Assembly: GCA_017405525.1 (NCBI GenBank)
Contig: JAFRAH010000034.1
Coordinates: 1-64,000 of the forward strand
DNA length: 64,000 nucleotides
Source: Synergistaceae bacterium
GTDB lineage: Bacteria; Synergistota; Synergistia; Synergistales; Aminobacteriaceae
Direction: 5' to 3'
In this document: positions 16,382 to 46,123 of the stretch, in pieces
Layout of the letters: each line of letters opens with the position of its first letter
Numbering within the stretch: position 1 is the stretch's first letter
Position numbers and translations under genes: made by a program
The notes under the pieces: model-generated
Told to the model about the DNA's origin: nothing
The model's input: only the letters and a program-made list of their open reading frames with translations
Database searches by the model: none

Positions 16382-17287
16382 TTAGCTTGAGGCTAAGAGT
16401 TTTTTCACGCTTTCATTGTGCGCGTAGTCTAGTGCTGTTTTTCCGTCAATGTTCTTCAGGCTTGTATCTGCCCCGTAGCTGAGGAGTATGTTCACGTTCT
16501 CCTGAAGTGATTTCTCTGCGGCATACATGAGGGCAGTTCTCTTCTCCCTGTCCTGAGCGTTCACGTCAGCCCCAGAGTTCAGAATTGCCCTGAGAACGTC
16601 CGGGTTGTCGTCAAACGCTGAGGCCATGAGCGGGGTATGTCCTAATGCGTCGGCGGCGTTCACGTCTGCCCCTGACGAGATGAGTATGCTGACATGTTCC
16701 GGCCTTAATGCCCTGTGAAGTGCTGTGATGCCGTATGAGTTCTTGCCTCTGACATCAGCCCCGGCATCAATGAGAAGTCTCAATACCTCGGCGTTCGTGT
16801 TGAACATGGCCGCCATCATGAGGGCAGTATTTCCGTCGTCATTCTTGGCGTTCACATTTGAGCCTGACTTTATGAGGGCGTTTATGATTGACGCTTCAGG
16901 GTTGAGCATTGCCGCAGTGATGAGCGGGGTATTTCCGTCATTGTCGCGTGCCTCAAGGTCTGAGCCGGAGTCAATGAGGAGACTCAGTGCCTCTACCGAT
17001 GAGCTGCGGGAGGCCGCAAGGATCAGGGGGGTACGTCCGTCATTGTCGCGGGCCTTGAGGTTTCCCCCAGCCTTGAGGATTTCCTGAATCTCCTCGAACG
17101 TAGCATCACGTTTCTTTGCGGCCTTGATGAGGTCGGTATCTGGTGCCTTGTAGAGCATTGCAGCAGCCGAGACAGCTATAAGCACTGCTATAGTGATGGA
17201 TATTGCTGTTCTTGGTGCCCCATGCCAGACCAGAAGGGCAAGGATTACGACCAGAAGAATGATGAGCCGCCTGCATAAGTTTCGCAT
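16382..17287 (-). CDS. Membrane-anchored ankyrin-repeat protein in the TRAP operon
   Basis: 301 residues. Two hydrophobic segments (about 8-24 and 28-46) form an N-terminal hairpin. The remainder is about seven ankyrin repeats with regular TPL-AA and GADVNA consensus elements, for example GNTPLITAAM and GADVNAQD. The hairpin would leave the repeats on the same side as the N-terminus, which ends in RRL and therefore probably faces the cytoplasm. It lies between another ankyrin gene and dctM. Ankyrins are protein-binding scaffolds; a role in assembling or gating the TRAP complex is an inference from position only. Confidence 0.8.
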   Translation of the reverse strand: MRNLCRRLIILLVVILALLVWHGAPRTAISITIAVLIAVSAAAMLYKAPDTDLIKAAKKRDATFEEIQEILKAGGNLKARDNDGRTPLILAASRSSSVEALSLLIDSGSDLEARDNDGNTPLITAAMLNPEASIINALIKSGSNVNAKNDDGNTALMMAAMFNTNAEVLRLLIDAGADVRGKNSYGITALHRALRPEHVSILISSGADVNAADALGHTPLMASAFDDNPDVLRAILNSGADVNAQDREKRTALMYAAEKSLQENVNILLSYGADTSLKNIDGKTALDYAHNESVKKLLASS

Positions 17288-17314
17288 TATGTTTGTTGCA
17301 TTTCCTTTCTTGTG

Positions 17315-17893
17315 TTACTTCATTGCTTCAAGTAAAACCTTTTTCACTTCATCTGATGCTGACAACCCTTCTGCCAATTCAAGCGCGTTAGTGCCATTAA
17401 CATTTTTTGCGTTCACATCTGCACCTGCTTCGAGCAAAATTCTGATGCATTCGAGATTGTTCGCAGAGACAGAATACATCAGGGCATTCAAGCCAGCCAT
17501 CTTGTCCTTTGCGTTTACGTCAGCCCCGGAATCTATGAGGAGTCTTGCCACGTCATTATTAGCGACCATTGCGGCATACATCAGGGCGGTCATGCCGTTA
17601 TCAGCCTCAGCATTGACATCATAGCCGTACTCTATGGCCTTCTTAGTCATTCCGGGCTCAAGGTAGGGATTCATTGCTAGGATCATCAGACCTGTAAGCT
17701 GACCTTCATATCTCTTTGATGCGTTCTGAGGACTTATGACAAGCTCATCCATCATTTGCGTTTCATACCTGACTTTACCTTGAGGTTTCAGTTTCCCGGC
17801 TTCCCTCATGAGCTCATCAACAGCACTCCCGAAAGAAGGGGATGCTAAAGCCAGAACAGCCGCAAGGATAATATACGGTTTTCCTTTTCTCAT
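17315..17893 (-). CDS. Exported ankyrin-repeat protein in the TRAP operon
   Basis: 192 residues with an N-terminal signal peptide (MRKGKPYIILAAVLALASPSFGSA). A linker is followed by about three to four ankyrin repeats (GMTALMYAAM, GADVNAKD, NALMYSVS, GADVNAKN). It should be periplasmic or outer-surface located. The start overlaps the dctQ stop by four bases (ATGA), so translation is coupled to the TRAP small subunit. Together with the next gene, one ankyrin protein may sit on each side of the inner membrane beside the transporter. No catalytic signature is seen. Confidence 0.8.
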   Translation of the reverse strand: MRKGKPYIILAAVLALASPSFGSAVDELMREAGKLKPQGKVRYETQMMDELVISPQNASKRYEGQLTGLMILAMNPYLEPGMTKKAIEYGYDVNAEADNGMTALMYAAMVANNDVARLLIDSGADVNAKDKMAGLNALMYSVSANNLECIRILLEAGADVNAKNVNGTNALELAEGLSASDEVKKVLLEAMK

Positions 17894-23634: not shown

Positions 23635-24480
23635 TCAGTAAAGGGATATGAGTTTCTTGAATGCCTCGGAAAGTTCTTCATTGCCCGGCGGAATTTCTGC
23701 ACCGTAACTCACAAGGAGCTTCGCCGCCTCACAGGTATTCAGGTCTGTCATGAACATATACACTGCCATCATCAGGGCGTTCCTTCCCTCGTTGTCCGTA
23801 ATACTGACATCTGCCCCTGCCTCAAGTAGGAGCTTGAGTGTCTCAAGATGACCGTAAACCGAGAGAATTAGTGCTGTCTTCCCGTTATTGTTTCTTGCGT
23901 CAATATCTGCTCCTGCGTCAACAAGTATTCTTGTCGTCCCGGAATGTCCGAGCATTGCGGCAAACATCAGCGGGGTCATTCCGTCATTGTTTCTGCCGTC
24001 AACGTCTGCCCCTGCGTCAATGAGGAGCTTTGCCGTTCTGGCTCTTCCTCTTTTTGCGGCCATGATAAGGGGGGTAGTTCCGTCCTGCATTCTGGCGTTG
24101 GTGTCAGCCCCGGCACGAATGAGCCTTGAAGCTATGCGTGTGTTCCCGTGTGATGATGCGGCCATGAGTGGAGTCCATCCTTCGGGGGGGCAAAGGTTGG
24201 GGTCAGCCCCGGCATTGAGAAGGGCAATCACTAGGCGTTCGAGGTTTCTTCCCACAGCGAGACTCAGGGCACTAAGTCCTTTGTCGCCTCCAAGATTGAC
24301 ATCTGCTCCCGAACGTATGAGGAAGTGCGCGGTTTTTGTGTGTCGTTCGAGAATTGCCATAGTGAGGGCAGTATCACCGATATTGTCCTGAGTGTTTATG
24401 TCTGTCCCGGCCTCAATGAGTGAAGCTACCTTTTTCCTCTGGCCGTCGCGTGAAAAGTCAAGAATATTTTTCCTGTACAT
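23635..24480 (-). CDS. Cytoplasmic ankyrin-repeat protein in the LPS-assembly operon
   Basis: 281 residues made up almost entirely of about eight ankyrin repeats (NIGDTALTMAI, GADVNLGG, GWTPLMAASSHG, DGTTPLIMAAKRG and so on) with a short acidic C-terminal cap. No signal peptide or membrane segment is seen, so a cytoplasmic scaffold or binding role is likely. It sits 9 bases upstream of the LptC-like gene and 4 bases downstream of an exported unknown, so it shares their transcript. It is the third ankyrin gene within 8 kb; the other two are inside the TRAP operon. Confidence 0.8.
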   Translation of the reverse strand: MYRKNILDFSRDGQRKKVASLIEAGTDINTQDNIGDTALTMAILERHTKTAHFLIRSGADVNLGGDKGLSALSLAVGRNLERLVIALLNAGADPNLCPPEGWTPLMAASSHGNTRIASRLIRAGADTNARMQDGTTPLIMAAKRGRARTAKLLIDAGADVDGRNNDGMTPLMFAAMLGHSGTTRILVDAGADIDARNNNGKTALILSVYGHLETLKLLLEAGADVSITDNEGRNALMMAVYMFMTDLNTCEAAKLLVSYGAEIPPGNEELSEAFKKLISLY

Positions 24481-33683: not shown

Positions 33684-34511
33684 CTATTCGGTGAACTCGT
33701 TGCGGAATGCCCGGAGGTTTCTCTTTCCTTCCTCATGTTTCCCCGGAAAATCGCTGACGTATATGGCAAATACTACAAGGCTGAATTTTTCCCGGTAATC
33801 CTTGAGTGCCTCGCCCCATGCCCGCGAAACTATCAATGGGTCATTGTGGAAAGCCCCGCACCCGAAAGCTCCACCCACGAAAATATCAGCACCGTTGAAG
33901 GCACATACACGAAGGATATTCCTTGCCCTCCTCACGTGAATGCTGAAGAGCTCCTCAGAAGTTACAGCCTCGCCCCTGAGATGAGGAGCCGCGCAGGTAA
34001 CAACGTCAACCTTCACGAACTCATCAGGTCTCAGCCTTGCGGGTATTCCGTCCGAATCGTCCTTGCAGATTACCACGTCGGGCGAATATATGCAGTCATC
34101 CCAGCCCCTGAAGTCATAGTGCTCTTTGTGCGGAATGTAGTAGGTCTCCATCATGGCCGGGTTGTCTAGCGTCGGGTAAAGCGTTGAGCTCCTGCACAGG
34201 CTCTCTTCCTGCGCGAATGCCCCGCCCCACACTCCTCCGCCGGGTCTGGTTGATGCCGCAAAGTTGAGGACAGCTATCTTTTGTCCGGGGAACTCCCGCG
34301 AAAGCCTCAATGCCTCCTGAAACGTCCTGCCCTCAACGACACGAATATCTCCCTCCTTCACTGTCTCCACTTCCTCGCTGAAATCTGAAGGGTAGAATTT
34401 CGTCCTTTCCCTGCTCGATAATGCGGCCTCCCTGAGAACGGGGTCTCCCTCAATGAATTTCACCGTGTCCCTGAAGGCTTCAGAAAGCTCACCCTTTGTC
34501 AGAATTGCCAT
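33684..34511 (-). CDS. Microbial PARG-like macrodomain protein (TIGR02452/DUF2263 type)
   Basis: About 275 residues. The diagnostic poly(ADP-ribose) glycohydrolase signature GGG-x6-8-QEE is present (GGGVWGGAFAQEE), followed by SLCRSSTLYP, as in bacterial PARG-like proteins. The two catalytic glutamates are therefore conserved. Such enzymes hydrolyse ribose-ribose bonds in ADP-ribose polymers or related O-glycosides. Start 34511 has GGAGG 10 bases upstream; the ATG at 34547 lies within the citG-like gene. It follows the citG-like gene by overlap of their reading regions and precedes thrC by 46 bases. The natural substrate is unknown. Confidence 0.85.
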   Translation of the reverse strand: MAILTKGELSEAFRDTVKFIEGDPVLREAALSSRERTKFYPSDFSEEVETVKEGDIRVVEGRTFQEALRLSREFPGQKIAVLNFAASTRPGGGVWGGAFAQEESLCRSSTLYPTLDNPAMMETYYIPHKEHYDFRGWDDCIYSPDVVICKDDSDGIPARLRPDEFVKVDVVTCAAPHLRGEAVTSEELFSIHVRRARNILRVCAFNGADIFVGGAFGCGAFHNDPLIVSRAWGEALKDYREKFSLVVFAIYVSDFPGKHEEGKRNLRAFRNEFTE

Positions 34512-34536
34512 ATCTCTTTTCCCTCCGTTTGTGTAG

Positions 34537-35433
34537 TCATTCGTCATAGCCTGAACGTGTCAGCCTCATACTCCCAAGCTCACGGACAAACAAAGCACAG
34601 GACATCACCACACTGCTTCCCGTCGGTGATGCCCCCCTTGAACGCAAATTCTTGTCCATCGCGAAAACAGCATCAAGCCCCTCAGTTGTGAGCATCCCCC
34701 CGGCACTTACTGCCTCCCTAGCTTCTTCCTGTACCCTCATGAGCTCGCTTATTCCCCCGTGTGCGGCAAGGCTCGTGTCCTGGTTCTCACTCATTACCTC
34801 AAGGAGTGCGTGCGTAACTCTCTCCCGGAAATTCAGCTGCCCCTGAGTTGCCTCAAGCCGTCTCAGTGCCTCTGCTGCCTTCATCGTCCGGGCGTATCCA
34901 TGTTCAGCCTCACCCCTGCAACCTTCAAGCCCGTAGGTAATGTAAGCTCTCTCTCCCGGTGAAAGGACTTTACCCCCTGTGTTGTCGGTCAATGGCCAGA
35001 GTTCCCGGGCAGTAAGTCCCTCAGCGAATGACGAGGCAGTTAGCATGAGAGCTCCGGGAGTGAGTATACGTTTCTGCGCGAGAAGTCTTCCTGCGGCGGC
35101 ACAAAGCAACCCCATGCAGAGAACATGACCCTTCATTGCGAGCCTGCCCCTTGTTGCGCACAAGGCATCATTGCTCCCGATACGGCCGGGAGATCTCAGG
35201 ATGCTGAAAACGTCAACAGGCTTCATGCTCTCGGTGTCTGCACCGGCTGATGCACAGTTCACGAAACACTGGAGAAGGGACATCGCTCCGTCAAGAAGGC
35301 AAGGAAAATCCGTACCGTCAAGCGGGCTTTCGTCAATAGGGGTAACAAGCCCGGGCTTGGGGTAAACTGAGGCGGTGCTGATGATTGACTTCACGGCTAA
35401 TTTCGCGGTGTTGAATACGTATATCTCGTTCAA
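34537..35433 (-). CDS. citG: CitG-like triphosphoribosyl-dephospho-CoA synthase family
   Basis: 298 residues with the CitG/MdcB pattern: SVYPKPGLVTP near the N-terminus, a helical core (SFAEGLTARELW, RGEAEHGYARTM), AAHGG, and C-terminal GASPTGSSVVM where the family has SPGGSADLL. The family makes the prosthetic-group precursor of citrate lyase and malonate decarboxylase by joining a triphosphoribosyl unit to dephospho-CoA. No lyase or decarboxylase genes are in the window, so the product's use is unknown. The start is TTG 35433 with a poorly spaced GAGAGG. It is followed directly by a PARG-like gene. Confidence 0.75.
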   Translation of the reverse strand: MNEIYVFNTAKLAVKSIISTASVYPKPGLVTPIDESPLDGTDFPCLLDGAMSLLQCFVNCASAGADTESMKPVDVFSILRSPGRIGSNDALCATRGRLAMKGHVLCMGLLCAAAGRLLAQKRILTPGALMLTASSFAEGLTARELWPLTDNTGGKVLSPGERAYITYGLEGCRGEAEHGYARTMKAAEALRRLEATQGQLNFRERVTHALLEVMSENQDTSLAAHGGISELMRVQEEAREAVSAGGMLTTEGLDAVFAMDKNLRSRGASPTGSSVVMSCALFVRELGSMRLTRSGYDE

Positions 35434-39395: not shown

Positions 39396-42300
39396 CTATG
39401 CTTTTCTTCCCAGGCATCCGGCAATCTCAATACATATAGCCTTGACCTGTTCAATGTCCTCATTCTTGATATATTCAGGGTGGGCATGGAACACTGGATC
39501 TCTTACCCACTGCAATTTAGCGAACCTCTCCTTCCAGTAAGTGGCATAAGGCTTTCCCCCGAAATATTCCCCAAAGCATTCGTTCCAGTACTGCCTCATC
39601 ACAGCACCAAGTACATGAATCGGCAAAACGTCAAGCAACCCTGCATCAGGGTCATACTTTCTCCGTGTCTTTGCCAGTGAGCCAGCATACTCATCAGAGC
39701 CCAATATTGGGTTAGCCTTCCTCAAAGCGTCATCAAGAGTTTCCGGCGTGGCCTTAAGTATTCTGGTCAGCTCCTTCTTCATGAGCCTCACTATGGATTT
39801 CTGAATGCTGAGTATTCTCAGGAACTCCGGCGACAATTTCACCTCAGCATCCTGAATCAGTGAGTCCCTTCTGTTTCCGTAGCCTTCAAGTGCCTTCTTG
39901 AACGACGATATTATTTCAGCGTCCGCATTTTCATGGGAGTAGACGCTCTCATCAAGTCCCAGTTTAGCGAGAAGGCTCCCGGAATATTCGAGGCTGTGCA
40001 GAAGTGCCTTAAGTGTCGGGGCAATAAGCTCACTCCCTGTAACGTAGGCCAGAGTAAGGAGACCCTCAAAGAATTTCCCGAAGTCATTGCACTCAAGGAG
40101 GCTCAACCCTGAAAGTGATATGCTTGGGGCTGTCCATTTCCCTGAGATGCTCTGAAACCGCAAGCCGTTCACGAAATAGGAATAGATGTAAATCCTAAGC
40201 CATACGTTGTTTTCGTCGATACGCCGGGCTTCCTGTATCTCGTCGGCAAGTTTAAGGAGGCAGTAACGCCGGGCAGTGTCGTAATTCGCCTCAGTCCTTG
40301 CCGCGCCGTCAAGCTGGGAATATATCAGGTACTCCAGCCCCTTGTAGGCCATGATCCTGATGTTGTCCTCTTCAGTTGCAGGGTAGAGCTTCTTGTCTGT
40401 ATCGTCAGCAAGCATGAAGAAACTGAAGACGTACCTCGCCATCACAAAGCACCTTTCAGCACGTTCGGAATTGGTCAGGTTAGTGTCGTCATTGTTGAAC
40501 CGGCTGACCATTGAGAGATAGTTAGCCCTGACTTCCCGGTAATGTCCCTTGCTGTAGTATGTATCAGTGAGGTATCTCGTGCTGAACTTCGCGGGGTTGA
40601 CGCTCCTGATTCTGTCCTGAAGGAATTTCGGGAGCTCGCTGAATGTACCGACAGTTCCGGGCTTCCTTGATGGTACGTCCTCCGTATGGTTTGCCGGGGC
40701 GGACTTCATGCCTCTGGTCTCAGGCGTGTACGTGTCGAGCGGGACATATCCCCGTGAAATCAGCTCCTCAACCTCCGGTGTGGTCTCTTCTTCGGGCTCA
40801 GGTTCAGGCTGTGATTCGGGCTCTTCATCCGGCGGAAGGAGACCTAATCTTTCGCGTGCCTTCTCCACGAGGCCGGATTCCTCCCATGCCTTCACTTTGT
40901 CGTCAGGGAACGGGACTGCCGACTCTATGTTCTGTATCTGCACCTTCCCGTTGTCGTTGATGCTCCGGGTAAATCTCACAGGGTGGCCTTCAGGGGACGG
41001 CTCTACCTCAAGGAACACAGAAAGGAGCGGGTCAGTGATGTTATTCTCGTTGAAGGTGTAAAGTTTCTTGTCCTTCGCTATGACTTTCCCGAACGGCGGC
41101 TCATTGTAGCGCATGAAGAAATCTATTTCCCCCTCTTCTGAGAGTGCCGCCATCATGTCAACAGAAAGTGCCTTCACTGATTCGTCATTGTCCTTCTCCA
41201 TTACGGCAAAGGCAGCAGGGCCCTCTACATTGTTTCCGAGCTTGAAGGTTACCCGTATCATCGGCTTCATCTTTTTCCCGGTGAGGAGCTTGCGGCGCAA
41301 TGCCCTGTCCTCTATCTGGTTGAGGTGGACGAAAACAGAGCCTTCAGAGCGCAAGGGGACGTTGTAGCGTTTCAGGCCGGGACACTTGATGAACCCGTAG
41401 AGCTTGTCCCTGTTGGGGTTGAAGTACTCAAATTCCCCCTCGAACCTTTGGGTGCTCCAGTCAACACGAGGGAACGCCGCTAATTCTTCCTGCTTGGGGA
41501 TGTCCGACTTCTCCGAGAGACTCAGAGCGTCATCAACTATCTTCATGTCCGAGGGCTGGGACTCAAGCCATGATCTTAGAGCGTCAATATTGGCCTGAGT
41601 GAAGAGCAGCGATTTTTCCGGCCATGATGAAAATCCGAGCATCTTCCAGCTTATGGCACTTGCACACCTGAAGCAGAGCTCCCGGTAATCATCCGGCATC
41701 TCTTCGTTCATTACGGCGTTCGAGACAACCCACCTCAAGAGTGCGCTGACCTGTGGGGGCTCAAGTTTCAGGAGGACGGCGAAATTCCGGGGGCTCAAAG
41801 GCTCGCTGACTATCAGGCAGGCGGCGGCTAACATTCTTGATGCTGCACTGGTCGCGGCAGTGAAGGCTGCCCTGAAATCGTGAATGTTCATGTAGATTTT
41901 GACGCTCCTGGCATTCTCGCCCATGAGGTAAAGCACAAAACCATAAATCTCCGAGGCTGGTATGCTGGTCTGTCGGCTCCTCCATAAGTTTTTTGCCTCG
42001 TCCAGTATCTGCCTCATCCTCATGGAATACGGCCTGTCCTCGTGAACTCGCACTGCATAGCTGTATTTCGTCAGTATGCTCTCTATGGAGTTCTGTACCT
42101 TGTTCTGCCGGTCTGTCCTGAATTTCCGTACATAGTCGGTGTTAAGTGTGTATGTCTGCAATTTTGCCTCTAGGTCATCATAGCATTCATCAAGTCCCTC
42201 AAGAAACGTTATAGCTGGTGCTGAAGGTTTGATGACATGGGGAGCTATAGGTGCAGGTGAAAATGAAGGGGTTTTTTCCCAGGAAGGCGACGAGTTACCT

Positions 42301-42476
42301 AACGGGCTTATTCCCCAGATCATAGGGTAGACAAAGAGGGCTTCTCCTGAATCGCTGCCTAAAGCAATAAGTTCATCCTCACACCTGAGAAGAACGCCGG
42401 AGGTTTTATGTCCGTCCGGCATTAACATAATCTCGACGTTGCGGCCAAGATACTGTTCAATATTTTTTCGTTCCAA
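39396..42476 (-). CDS. Large protein with Sm-like, cold-shock-like and HEPN (R-x4-H) regions
   Basis: 1026 residues; I recognise regions but no named family. Residues 1-57 (LGRNVEIMLMPDGHKTSGVLL, DELIALG) look like an Sm-like fold. Residues ~344-390 resemble a cold-shock domain (FEGEFEYFNPNRDKLYGFIK, EGSVFVHLNQI), and ~452-535 may be a second OB-fold (PPFGKVIA, LYTFNENNI). An acidic linker (~555-585) separates a helical C-terminal half. The last ~70 residues contain a HEPN-type Arg992-x4-His997 (RDPVFH), the active-site pattern of HEPN ribonucleases. The likely start is TTG 42476 behind AAGGAG. It begins 23 bases after purL on the same strand. RNA binding or cleavage is inferred, not shown. 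Confidence 0.65.
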   Translation of the reverse strand: MERKNIEQYLGRNVEIMLMPDGHKTSGVLLRCEDELIALGSDSGEALFVYPMIWGISPLGNSSPSWEKTPSFSPAPIAPHVIKPSAPAITFLEGLDECYDDLEAKLQTYTLNTDYVRKFRTDRQNKVQNSIESILTKYSYAVRVHEDRPYSMRMRQILDEAKNLWRSRQTSIPASEIYGFVLYLMGENARSVKIYMNIHDFRAAFTAATSAASRMLAAACLIVSEPLSPRNFAVLLKLEPPQVSALLRWVVSNAVMNEEMPDDYRELCFRCASAISWKMLGFSSWPEKSLLFTQANIDALRSWLESQPSDMKIVDDALSLSEKSDIPKQEELAAFPRVDWSTQRFEGEFEYFNPNRDKLYGFIKCPGLKRYNVPLRSEGSVFVHLNQIEDRALRRKLLTGKKMKPMIRVTFKLGNNVEGPAAFAVMEKDNDESVKALSVDMMAALSEEGEIDFFMRYNEPPFGKVIAKDKKLYTFNENNITDPLLSVFLEVEPSPEGHPVRFTRSINDNGKVQIQNIESAVPFPDDKVKAWEESGLVEKARERLGLLPPDEEPESQPEPEPEEETTPEVEELISRGYVPLDTYTPETRGMKSAPANHTEDVPSRKPGTVGTFSELPKFLQDRIRSVNPAKFSTRYLTDTYYSKGHYREVRANYLSMVSRFNNDDTNLTNSERAERCFVMARYVFSFFMLADDTDKKLYPATEEDNIRIMAYKGLEYLIYSQLDGAARTEANYDTARRYCLLKLADEIQEARRIDENNVWLRIYIYSYFVNGLRFQSISGKWTAPSISLSGLSLLECNDFGKFFEGLLTLAYVTGSELIAPTLKALLHSLEYSGSLLAKLGLDESVYSHENADAEIISSFKKALEGYGNRRDSLIQDAEVKLSPEFLRILSIQKSIVRLMKKELTRILKATPETLDDALRKANPILGSDEYAGSLAKTRRKYDPDAGLLDVLPIHVLGAVMRQYWNECFGEYFGGKPYATYWKERFAKLQWVRDPVFHAHPEYIKNEDIEQVKAICIEIAGCLGRKA

Positions 42477-42499
42477 TGTGAATAAACAACTCCTTGTGA

Positions 42500-45400
42500 T
42501 TAAGATTTGGCGAAATAATAACAGGCAGCCTCAAAAAATTTCATGCTGTAATTTCCCGGAACGTTCCTGTAAAGATTACTCCCGTTGCGCTCAACATGTC
42601 CCATTCTGCCGATTATCCTTCCGTCAGGGGATGTCAGGCACTCAACCGCATAGCATGATCCTGAAGGGTTGTCGCATGTCCTCATTGACGGACTGCCCTC
42701 GATGTCGCAATACTGCCCGGCAATCTGGCCGTTCCCCATGAGGCGCGCAAATTCCTCCTCACTGCACAAGAACCTTCCTTCACCGTGAGAGATTGGGATT
42801 GAGTAGACTTCCCCCGGCTGTGTGAACTTCATCCATGGTGAATTGTTCGTGATTACCCGCGAGCGTATTATCCGGGACTGGTGGCGGCCTATTCGGTTGA
42901 AGGTCAGCGTTGAGGTGAGCTCTTCGGGGTTCATGATGCGGCCATGCGGGAGCAGCCCGGTCTTCACGAGTGCCTGAAATCCGTTGCAGATGCCACAGGC
43001 TAGACCAGCCCGCTCATCTATGAGGCGTTCGAGTGCTGAGCGTACTTCGGGACTTCGGAGGAATATTGCGATGAATTTTCCCGAACCGTCAGGCTCATCA
43101 CCGCTTGAGAACCCGCCCGGTATCACTAAGGCCTGTGAGTCATCAAGCAGGCGTGCGAACTCTGAGGCTGATTCCTTCATGAGCTCAGGGGTCAATGTCC
43201 TCACAACGAAGATTTCAGCTTTTCCCCCGGCGTTGTTGATGGCTTTTGCGGTCTCGTACTCACAGTTCGTGCCGTTGAAGACAGGTATCAGGAATTTCGG
43301 CGTGGCTATAGGGCTGTGAGTGTAGGAGGCTCTCGGCAGATCATGGCCGGGCTTGATGTCGGGAATGTCTTGGTCTTCCTGCGTATCAGTCGGGAATATC
43401 GCGGACAACGGAGCATCATAGAGCTTCCCGGCGTCTGACAGCTTGACGGTCTCAGTGCCTGCGAGGATTTCGGGGGCACTAATCACGCGGCCAAGCTCCG
43501 GGTAATCCACTGGCTCATCATCAGCGAGCTCAACGATGAATTTTCCCCTTCGTGTGTCGTGAGTGAGGTTATCCGTGAACTCAAAGCCTAGATTGTTCCC
43601 GATGCACATCCTGAAAATTTCTGAGGGAATGCCGCCGTTCGAGACAAGAGAGCATGAGAGTATCCTGCCCTTGCTGTTCATGTCCTGAATGTCGGCAAAA
43701 ATCTTCAGCATTGATGACTTTACCGGGAGCCCTCTTGCGTCATATTCGGGTTCAAGAAGGATTACGCGCGAGCCTAGACGCTTGAACTCCGGGGAAATCA
43801 CGCCCTTAACGTCAGCAACCGAGACGGCAAACGCAATCAGTGTAGATGGAACGTCCAGATTAACGCCGTCAACCCCGGCAAATGTCCCGCTCATTGAGTC
43901 CTTGCCACCGACTGCCGCAACCCCGTAATCAGTTTGAGCCTTCAACGCTCCAAGTAATGCCCCGAATGGCAGCCCCCAGCGTTCCGGGTCATGCTCAGGC
44001 TTCCCGAAGTACTCCTGAAGTGTCAGCCAGCAATGAGAGAGACAGCCACCTGATGCCACGATCCTGCAGAGTGCCTCAAGGACCGCAAGATATGCCCCGT
44101 CAAATGATGAACGCTCCGAGAGGTACGGGTCAAATCCGTATGACATGAGCGAGCAAGTGTCAGTGTTGCCCTCGATGCCGACCGGGATTTTTGCACACAT
44201 TGCCTGAGACGGTGTCCTCTGGAATTTTCCCCCGAACGGCATTAACACCGTATGAGCCCCGACAGTCGAGTCGAAACGTTCAGAGAGCCCCTGCCCTGAA
44301 CAAAGGTTCAAGTCTGCGAGACAGTCCGGGAATTTTGCGGGTGAGTAATCCTGTGGCACTGAGGCGTTCACCTTCACGTTGATGTGCCTTGATGCCCCGT
44401 TTGTGTCGATGAATGACCGGGATAAATTCACGATTTCTTTTCCCCGCCAGGTCATGCGCATTCTACCGCTGTCATTCACACGGGCAATCACTGTAGCCTC
44501 TACGTCCTCAGAGAGAGCAAGAGCCTTCACACGTTCAGCATCCCCTGAGCTCACGACAACGGCCATTCGTTCCTGAGACTCACTGACGGCAATTTCCGTC
44601 CCGTCAAGCCCGGCATACTTCAGCGGCACAGCGTCAAGGTCAATGTCGAGTCCTTCAGCGAGTTCACCGACTGCCACACTGACACCACCGGCCCCGAAAT
44701 CATTGCAGCGTTTCACGAGGCGTGTGAACTCAGGGTTGCGGAAGAGACGTTGAAGTTTCCGTTCTTCTGGAGCGTTGCCCTTCTGGACTTCTGCCCCGCA
44801 TGTCTCGATTGAGCTTGCTGTGTGTGAGACTGATGAGCCCGTAGCCCCGCCAATGCCGTCCCTGCCTGTTCGTCCTCCGAGTAAAAGCACGACATCTCCC
44901 GGTTCAGGACGTTCACGCTTCACGTTACCCTCACGAACTGCCGCAATCACTGCCCCGACTTCGAGACGCTTGGCCCTGTAGCCCTCGTGATAGAACTCAC
45001 GCACTAAGCCGGTCGGTAGTCCTATCTGGTTGCCGTATGAGCTGTAGCCTTGAGCCGCCTTCGTGATGATTGAACGTTGAGGGAGCTTGCCAGGTATTGT
45101 GGGACTGAACGGGTCAGCCGCCCCGGTTATTCGCATGGCCTGGTAGACGTAGGCACGTCCTGAGAGCGGATCTCTTATTGCCCCGCCGATGCATGTTGCC
45201 GCCCCTCCGAACGGCTCAATCTCCGTAGGGTGGTTGTGGGTCTCGTTCTTGAAGAGGAGCAGCCAGTTCTCACCGTCAACGTCAATTCTCACTGTGCAGG
45301 CGTTGTTCTCCTCAGAGATAACGAGGTCTTTGGGCTTGAGGTACTTTGCTCCGATTGTGGCAATGTCCATTAACGTTATTGGCCGTGTCTTAGGATAGCC

Positions 45401-46123
45401 GAGCTCCTTACGCATTGCCAGGTACTCAGCGAATGCCTCCCTCACTGCGTCATCATGAATCTCCACGCCGTCAATGTGTGTCGTGAATGTTGTGTGCCTG
45501 CAGTGGTCAGACCAGTAAGTGTCGAGCACCTTGATTTCTGTCTGGGTTGCCTTCCTTCCTTCAGCCTCGAAGAATTTTCGGACGCACTCCAAATCTTCAC
45601 GGCTCATTGCCAGCCCCTTAACGCCCATAACGTCATCAAGAGCTTTAACGTCATCAGGCCGGGAATAATTCATGTCCAGCGATGAATATTCTTCAAGCTG
45701 TGCCTCCCGTGCCTCTACCGGGTTGATGAGATGCCTCCTTAATGCCCCGGTGTCCTGAATGCTCCCGTAGAACAGGTAGACGCTCGCAGTCCTAACCACC
45801 GGGCGGAAACCAAGCAATAACCCCGCGCATTGCTGTGCTGAGTCTGCCCTCTGGTCGTATTGTCCGGGAAGGTACTCAACCGCAAGGGTATAGTCCGCGT
45901 CGTCAGGCAGTGAGGCTAGTACGTTGTCGGTGAATGGCTCGGAGAATATCGAGTCCCTGCAGGTAGCCATCTGTTCATCATCGAGGCCCTGAATGTCGTA
46001 GCGTCTGAGGATTCGTACGGCCTTGAGGGTTTCGCAGCCCTTTATGCTCTTCAGCTCGGCAAGAAGAGATGATGCTTCGGGATTGTTGGTGTCTTTTCGT
46101 TCGGTGTAAATTCTGTGAACCAA
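42500..46123 (-). CDS. purL: Phosphoribosylformylglycinamidine synthase, single-chain
   Basis: 1207 residues. It converts FGAR, ATP and glutamine to FGAM in purine synthesis. Order: N-terminal PurS-like region, FGAM synthase core (SDHCRHTTF, NNHP-type NETHNHPTEIEPFGGAAT, GAGGVSVAVGELAEG) and a C-terminal glutaminase with the nucleophile in ACGICNGFQ and a catalytic His in SHGEGRF. PurS, PurL and PurQ functions are thus fused, as in the clostridial-type single-chain enzymes. The start is TTG 46123, with GGAGG 9 bases upstream. The 1026-residue RNA-related gene follows in the same operon. Confidence 0.93.
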   Translation of the reverse strand: MVHRIYTERKDTNNPEASSLLAELKSIKGCETLKAVRILRRYDIQGLDDEQMATCRDSIFSEPFTDNVLASLPDDADYTLAVEYLPGQYDQRADSAQQCAGLLLGFRPVVRTASVYLFYGSIQDTGALRRHLINPVEAREAQLEEYSSLDMNYSRPDDVKALDDVMGVKGLAMSREDLECVRKFFEAEGRKATQTEIKVLDTYWSDHCRHTTFTTHIDGVEIHDDAVREAFAEYLAMRKELGYPKTRPITLMDIATIGAKYLKPKDLVISEENNACTVRIDVDGENWLLLFKNETHNHPTEIEPFGGAATCIGGAIRDPLSGRAYVYQAMRITGAADPFSPTIPGKLPQRSIITKAAQGYSSYGNQIGLPTGLVREFYHEGYRAKRLEVGAVIAAVREGNVKRERPEPGDVVLLLGGRTGRDGIGGATGSSVSHTASSIETCGAEVQKGNAPEERKLQRLFRNPEFTRLVKRCNDFGAGGVSVAVGELAEGLDIDLDAVPLKYAGLDGTEIAVSESQERMAVVVSSGDAERVKALALSEDVEATVIARVNDSGRMRMTWRGKEIVNLSRSFIDTNGASRHINVKVNASVPQDYSPAKFPDCLADLNLCSGQGLSERFDSTVGAHTVLMPFGGKFQRTPSQAMCAKIPVGIEGNTDTCSLMSYGFDPYLSERSSFDGAYLAVLEALCRIVASGGCLSHCWLTLQEYFGKPEHDPERWGLPFGALLGALKAQTDYGVAAVGGKDSMSGTFAGVDGVNLDVPSTLIAFAVSVADVKGVISPEFKRLGSRVILLEPEYDARGLPVKSSMLKIFADIQDMNSKGRILSCSLVSNGGIPSEIFRMCIGNNLGFEFTDNLTHDTRRGKFIVELADDEPVDYPELGRVISAPEILAGTETVKLSDAGKLYDAPLSAIFPTDTQEDQDIPDIKPGHDLPRASYTHSPIATPKFLIPVFNGTNCEYETAKAINNAGGKAEIFVVRTLTPELMKESASEFARLLDDSQALVIPGGFSSGDEPDGSGKFIAIFLRSPEVRSALERLIDERAGLACGICNGFQALVKTGLLPHGRIMNPEELTSTLTFNRIGRHQSRIIRSRVITNNSPWMKFTQPGEVYSIPISHGEGRFLCSEEEFARLMGNGQIAGQYCDIEGSPSMRTCDNPSGSCYAVECLTSPDGRIIGRMGHVERNGSNLYRNVPGNYSMKFFEAACYYFAKS

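Follow-up and report, generated by a model that had tools for sequence, protein, structure and literature searches.

A purL-linked Synergistaceae protein with an Hfq-like start, tandem cold-shock domains and a very likely Swt1-like HEPN tail

HEPN domains of the Swt1/Abi2 clade are known in combination with STAND ATPase, TPR and S1 domains, e.g. in the proteins Npun_F6454, MED222_16016 and Desac_1927 (Anantharaman et al. 2013, PMC3710099). According to the relevant passages of the same paper, Bacillus-type proteins combine HEPN, STAND and cold-shock domains. The CoCoNuT type IV restriction systems, for which RNA is the predicted target, likewise bring together HEPN RNases, cold-shock OB folds and coiled-coil or otherwise helical parts, and some of them carry an AAA+/glycine-zipper cassette (PMC11090510). 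The first-pass annotation of the DNA described here stated that no described system has the order Sm-like, OB fold, HEPN. This was too strong, since Swt1 HEPN-STAND-TPR-S1 and HEPN-STAND-cold-shock fusions, as set out in the passages cited, have been known since 2013 (PMC3710099) and the kind of protein is thus already known; for the exact domain order we found no description in the open-access literature.

The window, i.e. the whole analysed stretch of 64,000 nucleotides, encodes on its minus strand a protein of 1026 amino acids with the domain order LSm-helical-CSD1-CSD2-helical-HEPN (42476 down to 39396). Only 23 bp separate its start from the purL stop codon. The Shine-Dalgarno sequence AAGGAG (42490..42495, minus) is located upstream of a conserved TTG start codon (42476-42474); such a motif was kept in all orthologues shown, and the start codon was TTG in 20 of 23 orthologues and ATG in the remaining 3. 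Pairwise dN/dS values of 0.05-0.15 over the full length show that the protein is under strong purifying selection. The ORF thus encodes a protein maintained by selection rather than being a spurious frame, and the single chain proposed in the first-pass annotation is real. With a probability of roughly 0.5 we regard it as a single-chain HEPN RNase gated by RNA binding, a factor of the dormancy type acting in stress or against phages. This reading is preferred because of the logic of its domains and the company its relatives keep.

Residues 1-60 (42297..42476, minus) form an LSm/Sm-like (Hfq-like) domain. The AlphaFold2 model (pLDDT about 89) exhibits an N-terminal helix followed by a five-stranded Sm barrel, for which Foldseek detected Hfq (1kq2_H) with a TM score of 0.77, an rmsd of 1.6 A and a probability of 1.00. 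Furthermore, the Pfam model of the RimP C-terminal Sm-like domain matched one orthologue (6.6e-4) and, exceeding the curated cut-off, the paralogue L107 (3.9e-7). The Sm-like start suggested earlier is thus supported by fold and by relatives. Compared to Hfq and other LSm proteins, the window protein shares this fold but carries about 960 further residues. The Sm2 signature of Hfq is Y-K-H-A; Y-P-M-I is found at this position in the window protein.

Instead of the one or two OB folds expected from the first reading, two were found in tandem. Cold-shock domain 1 (residues 340-430; 41187..41459, minus) contains the RNP1-like motif KLYGFI and the RNP2-like motif VFVH, and its positions G361, F362, I363, F382 and H384 are invariant among the orthologues. 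Cold-shock/OB domain 2 (residues 445-520; 40917..41144, minus) was modelled as a five-stranded OB fold with degenerate RNP motifs and aligned with the second half of Unr CSD1-2 (6y6m), to which the pair as a whole was matched by Foldseek (E 4.4e-4). The Pfam CSD model reached a best E-value of 1.1e-4 among the orthologues and 7e-5 in one paralogue; for the window protein itself a weak match to the cold-shock model was the sole sequence-profile match, and PDB sequence searches yielded chance matches only. Unr (CSDE1) resembles the window protein in its tandem cold-shock pair, but is a eukaryotic protein with multiple cold-shock domains and without nuclease. The OB pair is flanked by helical domain 1 (residues 88-330; 41487..42215, minus; pLDDT about 90), which belongs to no known family, and helical domain 2 (residues 610-870; 39867..40649, minus), which is conserved in the orthologues and in the relative from genome G022 and absent from the variants of G028 and G018. 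In the full-length AlphaFold model the N-terminal helix and five strands span residues 1-58, the first helical region 88-322 and the two OB barrels 344-427 and 447-519. This model had a mean pLDDT of 78 and a pTM of 0.39, and for the latter reason its domain arrangement is not trusted.

The fixed upstream neighbour is purL (long PurL, FGAM synthase; 42500..46123, minus). It was the next gene in all 26 genomes whose contig extends upstream of the full-length gene or of a variant at the purL site, usually within about 110 bp and in two genomes at about 160 and 450 bp, and the genes beyond this pair vary between genomes. The first-pass annotation had explained the link by purine control or simple transcript sharing. 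The adjacency itself was confirmed. Neither a purine riboswitch nor another RNA element was found at purL, which leaves the idea of purine control unsupported; the linkage is also much stronger than chance sharing of a transcript predicts.

The family was confined to one of the 63 genera searched in the Synergistota, with a match in 31 of 188 genomes; the named relatives are from uncultured Synergistaceae or Fretibacterium-like genomes, mostly of ruminant stomachs. The full-length form was present in 26 of 43 genomes of one Synergistaceae genus, including one contig-edge fragment and one gene split by an apparent frameshift. In the orthologue G099:C21:2255-5277 (L045) a split near residue 948 separates most of the HEPN domain, which is either an assembly error or a real inactivation. 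Relatives were sought within the Synergistota and the contig scan for others used narrow peptide patterns, so that distant relatives may exist outside this phylum. Searches of plasmids, phages and viral contigs revealed no relatives of the protein; a single weak plasmid match (E 0.4, Geobacter) concerned the ATPase of G022. Between genomes the identity of the gene tracks that of purL (r 0.86 vs a permutation maximum of 0.44), and three changes are needed to place the full-length form on the purL tree. This fits a single gain inside the genus and subsequent losses or changes.

The purL site differs among genomes. Where the gene is missing, purL can directly abut the neighbouring permease gene in a clean junction (G024, G094), or the site can be occupied by LicD/glycosyltransferase-like or toxin-antitoxin-like genes. 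The latter (RelE/HigA-like by eye) directly follow purL in G018 (L158:6111-6908), suggesting that the spot tolerates insertions. At this site in G022, a 1683-aa protein with LSm, CSD, TPR and STAND-like ATPase parts overlaps a 523-aa ATPase-HEPN frame; the two together may be one frameshifted gene. G028 carries a 731-aa form that lacks the middle helical region. Two diverged forms were detected in G018, one of which is preceded by an AAA+ gene and a glycine-zipper protein; the second adjoins the permease usually found beside the purL site. The row of AAA+ ATPase, glycine-zipper protein and CSD-HEPN (L108:2-3906 and L107), of which a partly identical second copy is located on contig C496, is possibly a mobile or duplicated conflict cassette. 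Short paralogues with LSm and tandem cold-shock domains but no HEPN are scattered over other loci, away from purL, in about a dozen genomes (e.g. L109:7129-8322, L111:7287-8774, L112:4818-5747 and L114:8052-9305). A general role of these as antitoxins was rejected, since they are absent from many genomes that carry the full-length gene, that of the window among them.

This distribution bears on the possibility that the protein is a housekeeping factor of RNA processing or decay, i.e. an Hfq/Unr-like chaperone with its own endonuclease which acts on cellular transcripts (e.g. during starvation) and is kept near purL for its expression. The adjacency to purL in 26 of 26 testable genomes, vertical co-inheritance with purL under purifying selection and a weak start codon (TTG), whose conservation suggests constant low expression, would all agree with such a role, and Las1 is a precedent for a HEPN RNase in RNA processing. 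However, the gene is missing from roughly one third of the genus and from every other genus searched, and the empty junctions are clean, so it is not essential. Moreover, the architecture at the locus turns over, STAND-like ATPases included. We consider a housekeeping role, the main alternative, possible but rather doubtful.

An RNA-gated RNase in stress response or phage defence would fit a different set of these observations. TPR, STAND-like ATPase and HEPN at the same locus in G022 is the architecture of conflict proteins described in the passages cited above, and the CSD-HEPN form of G018 behind AAA+ and glycine-zipper genes resembles the CoCoNuT cassette. The presence/absence pattern with clean purL/permease junctions and the toxin-antitoxin-like and glycosyltransferase/LicD-like genes at the spot point in the same direction. 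On the other hand, the strong purifying selection and the identity tracking that of purL are more typical of a resident gene than of one in an arms race. The defence reading is also weakened by the lack of relatives on plasmids, phages and viral contigs, by the PADLOC scan of the whole window protein, in which no model of a named anti-phage system matched, and by the missing NTPase switch.

The C-terminal residues 882-1026 (39399..39833, minus) are very likely a Swt1-like HEPN domain. HEPN motifs are of the type R-x4-6-H with a polar residue (N, D or H) behind the arginine, and lie where helix 3 ends and the loop leading to helix 4 begins. The tail contains R992-D-P-V-F-H997 (39486..39503, minus). 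Both R992 and H997 are retained without exception in all 23 orthologues and in 4 diverged paralogues of 24-48% identity (27 of 27 members), and are among only 14 invariant columns of 167; D or N follows the arginine in all 27, giving R-[D/N]-x3-H. The conservation check that had been proposed for these two residues thus came out in favour of the motif. The isolated tail was modelled as all-helical (pLDDT 87, pTM 0.79), with R992 in the last turn of the penultimate helix (977-996), H997 in the following loop and a final helix at 1005-1024, which is the position known from HEPN domains.

Several profiles bear on this assignment. Pfam HEPN_Swt1 matched 12 of the 27 members (best E 1.5e-4), HEPN_RiboL-PSP three (best E 1.4e-4) and the HEPN_Apea and SWT1 C-terminal HEPN models single members, the listed scores being below the curated cut-offs; among the defence-associated PADLOC models of HEPN type, PDC-M34B (5.9e-6), CARF-HEPN and RTasHEPN matched the family. 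Matches of PF18731 at about 17-18 bits in proteins of about 600 amino acids across the phylum were dismissed as noise, because the one inspected looks like an A-type subunit of ATP synthase and the others are of similar size. In hhalign the family tail aligned with genuine Swt1 HEPNs of the phylum with a score of 31.7 (E 1.8e-4), pairing R and H of both families, whereas none of the controls (ten slices cut from this protein and twenty shuffles of the columns) exceeded a score of 19.2 (E 0.027 or worse). Plain HMMER comparison of the family with the few genuine Synergistota Swt1 HEPNs was near noise in either direction. Foldseek found no significant PDB match for the tail alone (E about 1 or worse), its weak top 50 including Swt1 (4pqz), HEPN (4nqf) and HepT (7bxo) entries and 1wwp. 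Of the HEPN tail claimed in the first-pass annotation, the motif and a confident helical model stand, without a significant match in the fold search. For an RNA-gated HEPN RNase, the invariant R/H pair, the HEPN model matches, the hhalign score above controls and the Hfq and Unr fold matches weigh in favour, the fold search and the HMMER result against.

RNase activity of the tail is predicted. The protein might instead be a non-catalytic RNA-binding scaffold or translational regulator in which the HEPN fold merely binds or dimerises. RNA-binding parts make up most of the protein, short LSm/cold-shock paralogues exist without HEPN, and some HEPNs, including eukaryotic Swt1, are reported to be probably inactive. 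However, presumably inactive HEPNs typically lose the motif, and here R, D/N and H are retained throughout, which makes this explanation unlikely. That the tail is another helical domain (e.g. for dimerisation or a repeat) with R-x4-H by chance would be in line with the fold search and plain HMMER, but is very improbable in view of several independent HEPN model matches, an hhalign score above all controls and a motif at the HEPN-specific helix end.

If the protein is an RNA-gated HEPN RNase, the Hfq-like domain would assemble it, perhaps into a ring, and would bind single-stranded RNA together with the tandem cold-shock domains. Binding or crowding could be relayed through the helical regions to the HEPN domains at the C-terminus; two of these would pair so that R992 and H997 cut RNA by the metal-independent HEPN mechanism. 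Growth stop or destruction of the bound RNA would be the outcome. More specifically, we tentatively propose that a single protein acts as an RNA-activated RNase of immunity or stress, its Hfq-like ring and tandem cold-shock domains taking the place of the STAND ATPase as both sensor and switch. The purL-linked locus would then be one at which sensor modules are exchanged among species. If active, such a HEPN RNase would be governed directly by an Hfq-like/cold-shock RNA-binding head, without nucleotide hydrolysis or second messenger. The variants at one fixed locus (STAND ATPase present or absent, middle helical region missing, gene missing) are a natural series for comparing sensor and effector, and raise the question why a possible toxin-like RNase persists behind the important biosynthetic gene purL.

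What looks from its sequence like a second sensor-effector family of the same genus is encoded in G033, G094, G018 and G022 (L086, L089, L091 and L093), with two HEPN-like segments containing an R-N-x-A-V-H type motif, an S1/OB-like stretch and then ankyrin repeats. Ankyrin-repeat proteins, apparently common in the genus, are also encoded in the window (16382-17893 and 23635-24480), as is a protein resembling a microbial-type PARG/macro-like protein (33684-34547; TRPGGG...GAFAQEE) adjoining a CitG-like gene.

Compared to the Npun_F6454 type as far as it is described in the passages cited, the window protein has a Swt1-like HEPN with R-x4-H, an OB-fold RNA-binding domain and helical repeats in common, and its G022 relative at the same locus contains TPR, STAND-like ATPase and HEPN. 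In contrast, a profile scan detected no P-loop NTPase in the window protein. Its N-terminal domain is Hfq-like, two cold-shock domains are present instead of S1, and HEPN is located at the C-terminus. The Bacillus-type proteins likewise unite HEPN and a cold-shock OB fold in one chain, but this includes a STAND NTPase and has the reverse order, with HEPN N-terminal and cold-shock C-terminal; the passage describing them does not mention an Sm-like domain. CoCoNuTs share the combination of cold-shock OB, HEPN and helical parts, and their AAA+/glycine-zipper cassette the arrangement in G018. However, they are multi-gene systems built around a McrB GTPase and coiled coils. The window protein has neither of these, and by inspection no McrB-like gene was found among the ORFs of its neighbourhood or the orthologue flanks. 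Both the linkage to purL and an architecture with an Hfq-like front and without ATPase are new. The most fitting interpretation of the window protein is a variant that lacks the ATPase and has an Hfq-like head.
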